Source of the DNA: Clostridia bacterium
GTDB taxonomy: Bacteria; Bacillota; Clostridia; Christensenellales; Borkfalkiaceae
Reading direction: 5' to 3'
DNA length: 64,000 nucleotides
NCBI GenBank assembly: GCA_017399945.1
Contig: JAFQAQ010000024.1
Span: 1-64,000 of the forward strand
Shown here: one piece after another, positions 27,831 to 32,859 of the stretch
How positions within the stretch are numbered: the stretch's first letter is position 1
Layout of the letters: every line of letters starts with the position of its first letter
Notes under the pieces: generated by a model
Seen by the model: only the letters and a program-made list of their open reading frames with translations
Databases searched by the model: none
Told to the model about the DNA's origin: nothing
Program-made: the position numbers and the translations under genes

Positions 27831-28538
27831 TCAGTTGCTTTCCAAAATAGTAAGATACTCTATAACTCCCTTATATATTGTATACGCAAGCTTATCTTGA
27901 TACTCATCGGTAACGAGCAGTGCTTCGTCTTGTGGATTAGATAAAAAACCACACTCCGCTATTATAGAAGGATATTTACTACAATTTAGTATGTAATAAT
28001 CTCCGCATAAAGCCGAACATTTTCTACTAGCTTCTTCCATATTATTAAAACTTTCTTGTACGCAATTTGCTAAAAGTTTACCTTTTTCATCGTTAGCTTT
28101 ATAAAAAACTTGCGCTCCCCTTCTCGTTGTAATGCTAAACTTATTCATATGTATACTTATTACGACGTTTGGTTTAGTTTTTTCTATTATTTCCTTTCTT
28201 TTTAGCATATCTTTACGTTTAAGATTACCAGAAGCCGAACCATACAAACCTGCTTCGGTTGAACGAGTTAACGTTACCGAAAAACCACCCGAAATAAAAT
28301 AATTAGATAGTTTATTAGATACGGATAAATTAATATCGCTTTCCTTAACACCCGAAATTGCCCCACTAACTCCCCCGTCAATCCCACCATGCCCTGCATC
28401 AATTACCACCTTAAATACTTTTGCATCAGCCTTATCAGATAAGGAATTATTCATAGCTGAAATACATATTACAGAGGATATAAATATTAACGACAAGGTA
28501 ATTGAAATAATTATTTTTCTACTTTTAATAACGAACAT
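27831..28538 (-). CDS. cwlD: N-acetylmuramoyl-L-alanine amidase CwlD
   Basis: 235 residues: an N-terminal membrane/signal segment (about 9-29) then amidase_3 with zinc ligands H50, E66 and H130 and catalytic E195 (IIAECGFLSN). In Bacillus CwlD starts muramic delta-lactam formation in spore cortex. Length and 'GISGV.ESDINL'-type motif fit CwlD better than vegetative amidases. No Shine-Dalgarno is visible; TATAAT lies 10 nt before the ATG. A vegetative wall-amidase role is the alternative. Confidence 0.82.
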   Translation of the reverse strand: MFVIKSRKIIISITLSLIFISSVICISAMNNSLSDKADAKVFKVVIDAGHGGIDGGVSGAISGVKESDINLSVSNKLSNYFISGGFSVTLTRSTEAGLYGSASGNLKRKDMLKRKEIIEKTKPNVVISIHMNKFSITTRRGAQVFYKANDEKGKLLANCVQESFNNMEEASRKCSALCGDYYILNCSKYPSIIAECGFLSNPQDEALLVTDEYQDKLAYTIYKGVIEYLTILESN

Positions 28539-28573
28539 AGTATATAATATTATATTTTATTAAAGTATATGAA

Positions 28574-28599
28574 AAAAAGCCCTAATTTCAGGGCTTTTT
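28574..28599 (-). terminator. Terminator of the 28611-29384 gene
   Basis: 10-bp perfect stem AAAAAGCCCT/AGGGCTTTTT, loop AATTTC, T tract on minus. Confidence 0.85.
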
Positions 28600-28610
28600 G
28601 TAATAATTAT

Positions 28611-29384
28611 CTACACTATTTTACGCGATTTAAATACCAATTTAGTAATTAAAATAATTATACCTAATAAAGCATGCGCAACCGCACTAAACGTTGCGAT
28701 GGTTAACGGGAGCATGTTTATAGAAAGAGCTACTCCACCAACAACTGCGCCAACCGGAACTAAACTATAAGGTAGATAGTATGATAAAATAATCATTATA
28801 GCATAAAAAATTGGGTATATTACTGAAGAAGCACTGTCTTTAAAGTCTAGTATATCTCCAAGAGTTGGTATGATTAAGGAAATTATAAATACAATAACAG
28901 ACTTAAAAATATTTTTAGATAAGGCATTATTGGTTTGTTTTTTATATTTATTTACAACCTTTAGTTTTTCTTGATAAGACACTTTATGTCCAGTAATCAA
29001 CTTAAAAAACCCAAACAATACGTTCTTAAATAGAAAAATTATACAACTTATGGCTAATACGATAATTTTTGTAAATATGTACCATAAACCTAAGTAAAAA
29101 ATAATATCAGGACAATTATATTTATTTTGAAATGTTTCCAAATAAGAAGATATTTGACTTTCTATACTACCGTCATCTTGGGTTTTAGAAATATAATCCG
29201 AATAAGCCACGTTGTTTCCACCAATGTTTAAAATAGGATAAATAAACAAAGCAACTAATGAAACTATTACTGCTAAAACAGAGAGGAATTTTAAAACCTT
29301 AATTACCTTTTCGCGCCCTTTAATTTGTTCATATTGCCTTTCTACTTCTCGAATTTTATCATCATATAAATCTTCTTCGTACAT
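28611..29384 (-). CDS. Multispanning membrane protein of unknown function
   Basis: 257 residues with a charged N-terminal 30 residues and about five hydrophobic segments (near 33-55, 95-120, 160-180, 190-210, 215-250). No family recognised. It follows the small membrane protein at 29393-29629 by 8 bp and ends in a strong terminator. Before the rlmD islet was inserted, both would have followed rlmD directly. Confidence 0.65.
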   Translation of the reverse strand: MYEEDLYDDKIREVERQYEQIKGREKVIKVLKFLSVLAVIVSLVALFIYPILNIGGNNVAYSDYISKTQDDGSIESQISSYLETFQNKYNCPDIIFYLGLWYIFTKIIVLAISCIIFLFKNVLFGFFKLITGHKVSYQEKLKVVNKYKKQTNNALSKNIFKSVIVFIISLIIPTLGDILDFKDSASSVIYPIFYAIMIILSYYLPYSLVPVGAVVGGVALSINMLPLTIATFSAVAHALLGIIILITKLVFKSRKIV

Positions 29385-29392
29385 ACTCTTTC

Positions 29393-29629
29393 CTATTCCT
29401 TTTTTTCATTTTTAGATTCTTTTATCCTGTTTACAATATAACAAATTAAAAGAAAAATTGCAATAAAAATAACACAACCTATTAATAAAACTACGTCAGT
29501 ATCAATTGAAGAAACGTTTACGTTAAAAAGTTTTAATATAAAACAACCTATCACAAAACAAAATATTGCAAGTATAAGTTCAAGCAATGCTTCAAGCAAA
29601 TTATTCCAAATTTTAGATTTCTTTTTCAT
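29393..29629 (-). CDS. Two-span small membrane protein
   Basis: 78 residues: basic start, two hydrophobic segments (about 13-35 and 44-68) and a Lys/Glu tail. No family recognised. The ATG lies 7 bp after the stranded native rlmD stop (29637-29639), implying that it was coupled to rlmD before the insertion. Confidence 0.6.
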   Translation of the reverse strand: MKKKSKIWNNLLEALLELILAIFCFVIGCFILKLFNVNVSSIDTDVVLLIGCVIFIAIFLLICYIVNRIKESKNEKKE

Positions 29630-29636
29630 TATAAAA

Positions 29637-29672
29637 TTATATCTTACTTAAATTAACAACCGTTTCGACGTG
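29637..29672 (-). pseudogene. Stranded original 3' end of rlmD
   Basis: Minus-strand codons read HVETVVNLSKI-stop, beginning within CACGTCGA at 29665-29672. Joined to the rlmD body at the matching CACGTCGA (31481-31488) they give a typical RlmD ending, FPQTK-HVETVV-x-LS. Base use is A/T-rich like the host, unlike rlmD's present end. Confidence 0.75.
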
Positions 29673-29683
29673 GGTCATAATAT

Positions 29684-29735
29684 CAAAAGGTATATTTTTG
29701 TGCCAAATACGGGGGTTTTAAAGCCAAAAGGTATA
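29684..29735. repeat. Direct repeat near the islet end
   Basis: CAAAAGGTATAT occurs at 29684-29695 and again at 29724-29735, 40 bp apart, between the stranded rlmD end and the nitrilase-GDPD stop. Confidence 0.6.
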
Positions 29736-29742
29736 TATTTTA

Positions 29743-31371
29743 TTACTTGCGCTTGAAGTAATCTTCTTTCACCGCATTGTATATCGTCAAATAATCATTC
29801 GTCAAAACAGTGTCTATGCCCATTTCAAAATAGTGTTTCGCTTCTTCGGGATCATCCGCCCAAAATACATTGCAAAGAATTCCATGGACATGCGCTTTAT
29901 CAATGCTTTCTTGATTGAAATACGGCTTAAATAACTGCACCTTATAGGCGCCAAGAGCAATAGCGCGGTCAACGATAGAAGTTGGTTCCTTATTGCCATC
30001 CCATCCCACACAGACTTTGAGGTCCGGTGCGTATTCCATCACCTGTTTGATGATTTCATCATTGGTCGTCATAAAGTAAATGTGCTTTTCACAGTCGTAC
30101 TTTCGAATGAGCGCAACTATTTCCTCAATCATAGGATTTTCAAAAGCTGCATCCCAAATCTTGACGTGAATATTCATAATAACTCGCCCTGCGAATTTTT
30201 GTAGAATCTCTTCAAAGGTTGGGATTTTCAAGCCCTTGAATTTTTCGCCGTGCTTTGCACCAAAGTCAAGCTGCAAGAGCTCCTCGTATGTATGCTCATA
30301 AATTTTTCCGCTTCCGTCACTTACACGGTCAAGCGTCGAGTCGTGGCAAGAAACAAGCATACCATCCTTCGTCGACCACAGATCAAATTCGATCTCCTCT
30401 GCTCCGAGAGCGACCGCCGCACCGAATGCGGGCATACTGTTTTCGGGCGCAATTGTATTGAAGCCTCGGTGTGCGCAAAGACGGGGATATTTCATAACAC
30501 CGTCAAAAGGAACGACCGATGCGCCACCGTTTCGATAGAGCCACGGTCTGCGCCCCTCTTCAATATATTCGTAGTGCGATTTCAGCTTACCAAGATGCCC
30601 TGCAGGCTTGTAATATTTGTTCTTCGGGTCAATTTCGCAAACACCAAGTCCTACACGGCTTTCCATGTTGAGAAGCATTTCGCCCTTTGGAGAAACTACC
30701 ATACTGCAGCCGCAAAGCTCGGAGTCCTCTCCAAGCGATACAGATGCGCGGATCAGGTATGCATTTGTGTTATAGCAAAGAAATTTATTGATGATTGAAA
30801 GCGCATTGTGACTGTCGGTGCGTTGCAAAGAGCAACCGATAATGATATCTACATTCTCTCGTGCAATTTTTGCAAAATTTTCGTAAAAATAAAAATCATA
30901 GCAGGTAAGAAAAGCGAAACGCAAGCCCTCTATTTCCAAAATGTAGGGAGAGGCAACCTCATAGCTGTATGCCACGTCCAACTCGTGCCCGCCCTCAGCA
31001 TCGGTCTTAACTTCGCTGGGCGCGGGATGCGCCTTGAAATATCGACCAACGATATTGCCGCATCTGTCAAAGGCATGAGTGGTATTTCTAATACCGGTTT
31101 CGGTTTCATATCCCGCATTGACAAACACAAGCGAATTACATCTCTTTGCTGTTTCACTTGCCTTGCGTAAAAGAATAGAATTATATTGCTTGACCGCACG
31201 ATAAAATCCATCCTTTCCCTTCACGTCCGCAAGAGCATCGCTGTATTCGGGAAGAACGATTAAATCCAGACTTTCATCGCATTTGTCAAGCAAAGCCAAA
31301 AGACCTTCAAAGCACTGTTTTATATCCTTCTCTTCGAAGGAATATTTGGGTTGAATCACACAAACTTTCAT
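29743..31371 (-). CDS. Nitrilase-superfamily amidohydrolase fused to glycerophosphodiester phosphodiesterase
   Basis: 542 residues from ATG 31371, with AAGGAG 8 nt upstream; an upstream in-frame start has none. N-terminal nitrilase/carbon-nitrogen hydrolase (about 1-270) with catalytic triad E42, K113 and C157 (FLTCYDF). C-terminal GDPD (about 295-540): CAHRG (H301, R302), PEN, E328, D330, H343, the standard acid-base set. The two halves could act in turn on a phosphodiester with an amide or nitrile. Cytosolic; no signal. G+C-rich and alone in the rlmD islet. Each domain is common; this fusion is not one I recognise as standard. Confidence 0.88.
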   Translation of the reverse strand: MKVCVIQPKYSFEEKDIKQCFEGLLALLDKCDESLDLIVLPEYSDALADVKGKDGFYRAVKQYNSILLRKASETAKRCNSLVFVNAGYETETGIRNTTHAFDRCGNIVGRYFKAHPAPSEVKTDAEGGHELDVAYSYEVASPYILEIEGLRFAFLTCYDFYFYENFAKIARENVDIIIGCSLQRTDSHNALSIINKFLCYNTNAYLIRASVSLGEDSELCGCSMVVSPKGEMLLNMESRVGLGVCEIDPKNKYYKPAGHLGKLKSHYEYIEEGRRPWLYRNGGASVVPFDGVMKYPRLCAHRGFNTIAPENSMPAFGAAVALGAEEIEFDLWSTKDGMLVSCHDSTLDRVSDGSGKIYEHTYEELLQLDFGAKHGEKFKGLKIPTFEEILQKFAGRVIMNIHVKIWDAAFENPMIEEIVALIRKYDCEKHIYFMTTNDEIIKQVMEYAPDLKVCVGWDGNKEPTSIVDRAIALGAYKVQLFKPYFNQESIDKAHVHGILCNVFWADDPEEAKHYFEMGIDTVLTNDYLTIYNAVKEDYFKRK

Positions 31372-31427
31372 TATTGATTCTCCTTCCGATATGTTATACC
31401 GTACTGCTGTAAAAGGCAACTTCACTT

Positions 31428-31439
31428 GCCCGCAAGGGC
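31428..31439. repeat. Small hairpin near the islet's rlmD end
   Basis: GCCC-GCAA-GGGC stem-loop in the leader before the nitrilase-GDPD gene. No convincing promoter: TTGCCT and TATAAC are only 15 nt apart. Confidence 0.4.
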
Positions 31440-31443
31440 GAAC

Positions 31444-32859
31444 TTAGTTGTCGAGTCGTCGTGTGAGACACACGACAGACTCGACGTGCTTGGTTTGAGG
31501 AAACATATCAAAAAGCGTAATTGAATTCACTTTATATAAACGTTTATCGCTTTCATTTTTAACGATACCATTATTTCCAACAACTAAACTGCCCGTCAAA
31601 ACACCTAAATCCCTTGCTAGCGTCGCGGGATTACACGAAACGTAAATAACGTTATCTATATTGTTTTCTATGAGAGATTGAATTACCGAAAGGTCACAGC
31701 CTTTTCTTGGAGGGTCTAACACTACCGTAACTCGTTCACCATTTACTACTTCTTTTTCAAGTACTTTTGGTAAAATTTCTTCACATTTACCAGTATAGTT
31801 AACAATTTTTGATTTTAGACCGTTACTTTCAGCTAGTTTGTTCGATAGTTCAACAGCTTGTGGAATAATTTCTATACCAATAGCCTTTTTTGCGTTTTTT
31901 GCCAAAATTGAAGTCATCAGACCGGCACCACTATACGCGTCAATTACAACTGATTGACAATCAGCGTTAACAGTTTTTTCAACGTGAGAATATAATTTTT
32001 CGCAAATGTTATCGTTTACTTGCATAAAACTTTGCACGCTCATCGGAAATTTTATCGATAACATTTCACCGTAGTATTCATTATCGCCGTAAACTTTATA
32101 GAATTCGTCGCCGTATATTACGTTTGAATTCGTTGTATTAACGTTAACAAAAAGAGAAAACTTGTTTGGTAAATATAGCCTTAATATATCAACAAAGCGT
32201 TGCATTCCATCAACTTTTTTCTTATTAATAACCAACGTAATAATTAGATTGCCCTTAACTTCTCTTACGGTTATTTCTCTTAAATCACCCTTACGAGTAA
32301 ATTGGTCGTATCCCTTTAAATTAAATTCTTTTGCGTATTGTTTAACGGATTGTATAATACCCCTTGTCCAATCGGCGTTTATTAAACAATCGTCAATTTC
32401 AACTACTCTATGTGAATTTTCTGCATAAAACCCAACGGCAAGATTATCATCAACGTTAGAAATCGGTAACTGTAGTTTATTCCTATATCTAAACTCATTA
32501 TCACACCCAACTACGTCCGTAACTTGATTATCGATAAACGCAACTTTTTTCAGAGTATTTTCAACAGATTGCTTTTTTAATAACAATTGTTTTTCATATA
32601 AAACGTGTTGAAGTTGACACCCACCGCATTTACAAAATACTTCACACGGTGGAGTTACTCTATCACGCGATTTTTCAGTTACTTTTAATAACTTTGCAAA
32701 AACACATTTAGACGTTACTTTTAAAACTTTATATTCAACAACTTCACCCAATAAAGCAAACGGAACGAAGATAACTTTATCTTCGTCCTTAATAATCCCT
32801 TCTCCATTGTTTCCAATAGAAATAATTTTCCCTGTTTTAACGTCGTTTTTCTTAATCAT
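31444..32859 (-). CDS. rlmD: 23S rRNA (uracil-1939-C5)-methyltransferase RlmD
   Basis: 471 residues: N-terminal TRAM domain (about 1-60), [4Fe-4S] ligands C72, C78 and C81 (CKCGGC), and methyltransferase core with DPPRKGC and the nucleophile in VSCNPATLARDLG. Full length and functional-looking. The last codons (after HVE) are element-derived: SVVCLTRRLDN, G+C-rich, overlapping a long dyad at 31449-31484. The native end lies at 29637. Start shares one base with the stop of the upstream gene. Confidence 0.92.
   Translation of the reverse strand: MIKKNDVKTGKIISIGNNGEGIIKDEDKVIFVPFALLGEVVEYKVLKVTSKCVFAKLLKVTEKSRDRVTPPCEVFCKCGGCQLQHVLYEKQLLLKKQSVENTLKKVAFIDNQVTDVVGCDNEFRYRNKLQLPISNVDDNLAVGFYAENSHRVVEIDDCLINADWTRGIIQSVKQYAKEFNLKGYDQFTRKGDLREITVREVKGNLIITLVINKKKVDGMQRFVDILRLYLPNKFSLFVNVNTTNSNVIYGDEFYKVYGDNEYYGEMLSIKFPMSVQSFMQVNDNICEKLYSHVEKTVNADCQSVVIDAYSGAGLMTSILAKNAKKAIGIEIIPQAVELSNKLAESNGLKSKIVNYTGKCEEILPKVLEKEVVNGERVTVVLDPPRKGCDLSVIQSLIENNIDNVIYVSCNPATLARDLGVLTGSLVVGNNGIVKNESDKRLYKVNSITLFDMFPQTKHVESVVCLTRRLDN
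31449..31484 (-). terminator. Dyad at the new 3' end of rlmD: attachment-site arm or terminator
   Basis: GTCGAGTC-x-GTCGTGTG pairs with CACACGAC-x-GACTCGAC around a 2-4 nt loop. It adjoins the CACGTCGA core. No T tract follows, so an attachment-site role is as likely as termination. Confidence 0.5.

Follow-up and report, generated by a model that had tools for sequence, protein, structure and literature searches.

A one-gene islet in the 3' end of rlmD as a probable member of an array-forming family of mobile gene cassettes

The stretch of DNA analysed here (the window; positions 1 to 64,000, that is 64,000 nucleotides, of contig JAFQAQ010000024.1 of the Clostridia bacterium assembly GCA_017399945.1) carries an islet of about 1.8 kb in the 3' end of the methyltransferase gene rlmD (rumA). 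The islet is inserted at the His-Val-Glu codons of rlmD and consists of an rlmD-like left end with a hairpin, one gene and a conserved right end of about 70 bp. Its ends recur at rlmD in other genomes around other cargo, and we consider it probable, on comparison of these sequences, that the islet is a non-autonomous mobile gene cassette moved in trans by serine recombinases of the rumA type. The source genome comprises 1.59 Mb in 29 contigs, of which the window is contig 21; the other genomes and loci compared are designated by G and L numbers, respectively.

The islet and its ends

An earlier note had proposed an insertion at the 3' end of rlmD from an 8-bp repeat, CACGTCGA (TCGACGTG on the plus strand), which we confirmed at 29665-29672 and 31481-31488, in both cases as the RlmD His-Val-Glu codons. 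The same junctions and the right end of about 70 bp recur at rlmD elsewhere with other cargo and therefore bear out the insertion and rule out a chance repeat. The same-genus genome G008 shares the left end (CACGTCGAGAGTGTCGTGTGTCTCACACGG) and the right end and likewise has a stranded rlmD tail, HVETIVCLNKK, but the gene enclosed is another one, of 177 aa. The earlier note had suggested a search for such cargo, and relatives do carry it at this end of rlmD. The features of the locus, all on the minus strand, are as follows.

31444-32859: rlmD (Pfam tRNA_U5-meth_tr and TRAM), host-like up to the core, then with a cassette-type tail (HVE followed by SVVCLTRRLDN)
31484-31488: left junction core CACGT, with GT at 31484-31485 as the most likely crossover dinucleotide; CAAGT stands at the same place in the recombinase genes of L265 and L266
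31450-31485: hairpin within the left end of the cassette, GTCGAGTC...GACTCGAC, doubling as code for the RlmD tail (from the fold)
31372-31449: leader of the cassette, containing TTTTACAGCAGTACGGTATAACAT and, as ribosome-binding site, GGAAGGAG; 24 of 79 cassettes have the motif in looser form
29743-31371: cargo gene of about 542 aa, a nitrilase (carbon-nitrogen hydrolase, CN_hydrolase) domain fused to a glycerophosphodiester phosphodiesterase (GDPD) domain (Pfam)
29673-29742: conserved cassette right end ...ATATATACCTTTTGGCTTTAAAACCCCCGTATTTGGCACAAAAATATACCTTTTGATATTATGACC (alignment), homologous in 55 of 95 scan stretches
29725-29735: first TATACCTTTTG direct repeat (alignment)
29684-29694: second TATACCTTTTG direct repeat (alignment)
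29668-29672: right junction core CACGT (sequence comparison)
29637-29672: stranded RlmD tail, HVETVVNLSKI and stop, in host-like A/T-rich codons; derived either from native rlmD or from an older cassette whose left end is worn
29393-29629: gene for a 78-aa membrane protein, probably the cargo of an older cassette without a right end; its relatives among the loci examined adjoin cassette sites

The G+C content of the islet is 43.9%, compared with 34.3% for the window, and 3 of 622 sliding 1.8-kb windows were equally high. RlmD now ends in ...PQTKHVESVVCLTRRLDN and a stop, its tail, starting at CACGTCGA, being HVESVVCLTRRLDN, and the dyad described at this end is real, with a 16-bp stem, one bulged base and a z of -4.1 (1 of 200 shuffles as stable). 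The nitrilase-GDPD gene makes up the whole coding content, integrase and transfer genes being absent, as expected from the proposed single cargo gene without a recombinase. This gene probably starts at the ATG at 31371, which has a ribosome-binding site just upstream, rather than at the GTG at 31425, and it was probably acquired sideways, because near-full-length relatives of the fusion (47-66% identical) sit, among 396 genomes of the order, in G211, G386, G349, G159, G146, G131, G384 and G069, all of other families. The right end, a feature missed by the earlier note, spans about 70 bp with the two TATACCTTTTG repeats 41 bp apart and terminates in ATGACCCACGT in the window. Rfam gave four matches below the gathering threshold over 28500-32000, none of them in the islet.

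The stranded segment has its stop at 29637, and the ATG of the next gene was confirmed 7 bp further. The reading of this segment as the native rlmD end agrees with its host-like codons, but it may also be the left end of an older, worn cassette; both origins are kept here because the adjoining 78-aa gene resembles genes beside cassette sites elsewhere.

Distribution, arrays and cargo

The right-end pattern matched 2 of the 44 genomes of the genus and 7 of 251 genomes of the family; all seven were homologous on reading, with differing cargo, and each stood beside an rlmD-like tail (out of frame in G518). Among 396 genomes sampled from the order, it matched only the source genome and G225, and the latter was dropped as chance-like. 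Across 84,980 genomes it returned 95 stretches, of which 55, from 52 genomes, scored at least 30 bits with a right-end profile and were taken as homologous; the remaining 40 (Bacteroidetes, Spirochaetes, Lachnospiraceae and others) scored at most 18.3 bits and were read as tandem repeats or chance. These 52 genomes are six family genomes already matched in the family search and 46 others, giving 53 cassette hosts with the source genome. The 49 stretches outside the six family genomes belong to records named Clostridia or Oscillospiraceae bacterium, 39 from ruminants with the gut section given and 10 from SIG isolates without a stated host. A looser pattern matched one to three times in each of those 46 genomes, a few matches being unrelated (e.g. 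in G648).

We examined 47 regions, namely 40 from 38 of the 46 genomes (eight were left out), those of the six family genomes and the window. In 29 of them, the first site is preceded at 305-3750 bp by rlmD in the same orientation. Of the other 18, 16 have no more than 1.7 kb of contig ahead of their first site, among them L269, with an rlmD fragment at its far end; in the remaining two, L265 and L266, a recombinase gene lies upstream. A renewed search for rlmD in 17 genomes gave a match in 14; rlmD has a cassette-type tail in G640, G630, G625, G653, G638, G646 and G663, the tails in G501, G624 and G632 were unreadable, and that in G539 is HVETLVCLTRVNHNI. In L325 (G650) and L319 (G655), rlmD carries another long tail (HVETVCLLSKLN..KQHIE..), as if from another kind of element at the same site. 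In L072 (G485), a cassette site follows rlmD at a distance of 3.4 kb; it is preceded by an aldolase-like gene and by a fragment with the ending TKTSVESVVCLTRK, possibly a rumA-type recombinase gene worn down to its end.

Arrays of two to six sites of at least 30 bits were present in 17 of the 47 regions (18 at 15 bits), with mixed-strand sites in none at either threshold and inter-site distances of 300-2693 bp (n = 32). The longest (L130/L238) runs from rlmD through six sites to a ROK-type host gene recognised by eye. As read from these regions, the putative cassettes have a common layout, with a left end coding for an RlmD tail, a single gene or in some cases more than one, a right end of about 70 bp and cargo that varies by genome. 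Loose protein linkage placed 75 of their open reading frames (ORFs) in 14 clusters with at least two members and 25 singletons. Leaving aside that of the window, 14 of 29 cargo proteins had no Pfam match at an E-value of 0.01; matches over the curated cut-off were to GIY-YIG, HNH, peptidases S15, C26 and S51, DUF4886, a 23S rRNA-intervening-sequence protein and DUF1835 with DUF3658, and the remaining matched cargo fell below it. The description of the islet as a possible trans-mobilised cassette or remnant holds, with the refinement that membership of a large family with tandem arrays makes 'cassette' the better of the two words.

The arrays could also be old tandem accretions that no longer move, each cassette being the worn remains of a separate integrative and conjugative element (ICE) or integrative and mobilizable element (IME) at the rumA site. 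We regard this explanation as unlikely, although the rumA site, the tandem order and the missing recombinase agree with the published accretion model for cis-mobilizable elements (CIMEs; PMC5704250), and although some array members have weak right ends and some cargo (the DUF4886 gene of L003 and the 78-aa gene of the window) has none. Set against it are the uniform small layout, the common right end and the spacing of the sites, which indicate self-contained moving units. The same cassettes also recur at 92-97% nt identity in different arrays, and comparison of the array ORFs with serine recombinases revealed none besides those of L265 and L266. The islet itself holds no trace of ICE genes, and the uniform small layout may argue against derivation from an ICE or IME by loss.

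The cassette of the window recurs in G631 (L137/L235), a sheep-gut metagenome-assembled genome (MAG): the match, of 97.1% nt identity, spans 1304 bp and stops shortly beyond the core, that 9.4-kb contig has no other long match, and the cargo is 98.2% identical (aa) over the 398 aa present there. G618 shares a cassette with G539, a member of the family of the window (95.4% nt over 305 bp; host RlmDs 30.1% identical), and one with G620 (92.1% nt over 672 bp; host RlmDs 53% identical). Cassettes shared between distant hosts are bounded at the CAYGT of the RlmD His-Val codons, and the sequence flanking cassettes is host-specific on both sides. If the islet, once mobile, were now spread by homologous recombination over conserved rlmD flanks, with no site-specific recombination, one could invoke the conservation of rlmD and left ends alike enough to recombine; a cassette 95% identical up to a boundary at the core, between hosts whose RlmDs are 30% identical, and the host-specific flanks make this highly improbable.

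Behind rlmD, the window has the islet, the 78-aa gene and a 257-aa gene before an amidase gene (27831-28538). This amidase gene also lies behind rlmD, without the islet, in 6 of 19 other same-genus rlmD loci (with flanks reaching 1.5 kb), directly after rlmD in five of the six. In the sixth, L003 of G016, a DUF4886 gene at 2190-2975 stands between rlmD and the amidase gene with no right end; it is 69% identical to cassette cargo in L171 and is read as a relic cassette that lacks its right end. Relatives of the 78-aa protein found by tblastn (L123/L239, G518 and L149/L262) each adjoin a cassette site, L097 being similar by eye only; the other loci compared gave no match to the 257-aa protein. 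Because the 78-aa relatives adjoin cassette sites and DUF4886 cargo stands alone in G016, older cassettes stripped of their right ends are likely present behind rlmD in the window. In L239, L262 and G518, the relative of the 78-aa gene comes after the final cassette site and lacks its own right end; it may be a terminal cassette or an end marker.

Left ends, recombinases and a proposed mechanism

We extracted 99 left junctions, nine sites yielding none, and 95 of the 99 start with CA. By eye, the left ends sort into a hairpin type, a type with a leader of about 100 nt and a compact type in which the RlmD tail overlaps the cargo ribosome-binding site. The 29 rlmD-adjacent junctions, which were selected by core pattern, all have HVE or HIE tails. 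A strict hairpin was found in 30 of the 95 left ends (14 of the 29 rlmD-adjacent) compared with 44 of 1900 dinucleotide shuffles, whereas a looser threshold (64 of 95 versus 515 of 1900) was uninformative. Across 24 distinct hairpins, 12 of 22 arm positions were changed on both sides, with pairs counted from single folds since the MAFFT alignment misplaced the hairpin arms; this is no proof of selection for structure, because an inverted duplication could yield the same pattern. Strings of short G+C-rich hairpins with TGAATT or TGAAGTT spacers stand behind hairpin-type left ends in L130 (2260-2540) and L265 (2640-2880, reverse strand).

A hairpin retained while its sequence shifts is reminiscent of attC, and a ~350-aa Xer-like protein, read by eye, is present in all 13 array hosts searched. 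Both would fit the possibility that a host tyrosine recombinase, either Xer-type or an integron-like integrase, moves the cassettes, with hairpin left ends acting as attC. We nevertheless find this quite doubtful, given that the strict hairpin is restricted to 30 of 95 left ends and could also stem from inverted duplication, and that the only kind of recombinase gene seen fused to a cassette end is serine. PF00589 gave 51 matches in 17 hosts, and the 30 loci viewed (about 1.5 kb on each side) held neither a cassette site nor an IntI next to an array, a search made without an IntI-specific model. A family of tyrosine recombinases of about 280 aa with the motif FPHNLRHLFAR, recognised by eye, was seen in several cassette hosts (L193, L196, L198, L199, L201 and L202), broken in L198 and L202, in loci without a cassette site.

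Comparison of the array ORFs with serine recombinases, which was uninformative on tyrosine recombinases as its motif filter left one of that class, revealed a large serine recombinase upstream of the cassette in L265 (G650) and L266 (G663). The protein has 558 aa and Resolvase, Recombinase and Zn ribbon domains in G650, and the copy in G663 is 92% identical. The serine recombinase search suggested by the earlier note was therefore successful for two other genomes but not for the source genome, where the best of three PF00239 matches is 31% identical to this recombinase. Its relatives include proteins of a human-gut phage-like record (81%), a Streptococcus constellatus prophage record (77%), an Anaerococcus plasmid (76.5%) and an S. 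suis element named after rum (53.7%). The C-terminus in G650 and G663 is an RlmD-like tail (..DNDTQVETIVCLCKQ and ..DNDTQVESLVCLTRK), the 3' end of the gene being fused at the core CAAGT to the cassette left end, as expected if the recombinase had acted at an rlmD-cassette junction. According to published work, single serine integrases of streptococcal ICEs target rumA, with repeats of 2-21 bp and attR within the integrase gene (PMC4701971). In L265, a frame upstream of the recombinase gene resembles, by eye, a Mob/Pre relaxase.

In the mechanism we favour, a large serine recombinase, like those with which ICEs, IMEs and prophages enter rumA/rlmD, would insert a circular cassette into rlmD; a rumA-type element would provide this enzyme in trans. 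The right end would be one half of the cassette attachment site and the left end the other, with the crossover within CAYGT; GT is the simplest core, as the recombinase side has CAAGT and most cassettes have CACGT or CATGT. Since the left end would imitate the rlmD 3' end, each insertion would regenerate a working RlmD and an adjacent target, and cassettes would stack behind rlmD, newest first, in a manner similar to an integron attI. Expression of the cargo probably starts in the leader of the cassette or relies on the transcript of rlmD.

Several observations weigh against this proposal. A high-identity rumA-type recombinase was present in only 2 of the 53 cassette hosts, the other matches being partial and not exceeding 40% identity, and PF00239 had no match in 9 of 26 hosts. 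A source in trans is therefore not seen in most of the genomes, which are incomplete MAGs; it is from this scarcity that we infer supply in trans. The recombinase-cassette block of G663 is on a contig other than that of rlmD, and the likeness between the right end and the recombinase-side half site (TTTGGACAATGATACACAAGT versus TTTTGGTCTTATGACCCACGT) is only suggestive. A simple attachment site of the serine type does not account for the right-end direct repeats and the left hairpin. Neither a circular form nor excision of a cassette was seen, one scan of viral contigs for a carrier gave no match and another two chance-like matches, and the junction had no match in phage and plasmid collections.

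Comparison with known systems and significance

Among the closest systems are the ICEs, IMEs and prophages that use a single serine integrase at the rumA (rlmD) site in streptococci and C. difficile (CTn5; PMC4701971); they share the target gene and codons, orientation, core and exchange of the rlmD 3' end, and the recombinases of G650 and G663 belong to their recombinase family. The islet likewise sits at the His-Val-Glu codons with the 3' end exchanged; the cassettes differ in holding one gene without integrase or transfer genes, in having a conserved right end of their own and in forming arrays. A serine integrase of their own with attR inside its gene, typical of rumA-type elements, is absent from the islet and stands beside cassettes only in L265 and L266.

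CIMEs similarly have attL- and attR-like ends without an integrase and form tandem structures (PMC5704250). The islet shares the flanks of this kind, with the core CAYGT at both ends and conserved right and left ends, as well as the lack of its own integrase and transfer genes; CIMEs are unrelated decayed islands, whereas the cassettes are uniform, small and common to several arrays. The staphylococcal and enterococcal cassette chromosomes (SCC with psi-SCC, and ECC) at rlmH also occupy the 3' region of a methyltransferase gene by means of large serine recombinases, named Ccr (for ECC, PMC6222049). They are large islands with another target gene and other recombinases, while the cassettes measure about 0.3-2.7 kb. 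Neither rlmH insertion nor Ccr was found for the islet, the target being rlmD and the recombinase nearest to rumA-type and prophage integrases. Some members of psi-SCC lack a recombinase.

Like integron cassettes, those described here are one-gene units that share a strand and form arrays at a fixed position, with a structured end and much cargo of unknown function; they differ in that the fixed target is the end of a housekeeping gene, the recombinase is of the serine type and no IntI or attI was seen. The attC site of integron cassettes, with its R and L boxes, stands at the 3' end; in the present cassettes the left end has the hairpin (30 of 95) and the right end the direct repeats, the box consensus being compared by eye only. 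Among the titles and opening lines of abstracts listed from the open-licence PMC literature, none reported cassette arrays at rlmD/rumA, a weak absence because the search covers only papers of that kind.

The best-known systems that accumulate single genes at one fixed position are integrons, which rely on a tyrosine integrase. An evenly balanced case can be made that the present system would be a serine-recombinase counterpart of the integron, with dedicated one-gene cassettes in gut Clostridia, rlmD as the platform whose end is restored at each insertion, a recombinase borrowed from passing rumA-type ICEs and IMEs, and arrays that grow, shuffle and cross between distant hosts. The question whether rumA-type integrases move single cassettes in trans thereby becomes testable, and such a system could provide a single-site integration tool. 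If true, a cassette system that relies on serine recombinases and has the end of a housekeeping gene as its site, found here in 53 genomes, would represent an independent solution to gene capture in Firmicutes and would account for part of their small-gene turnover.

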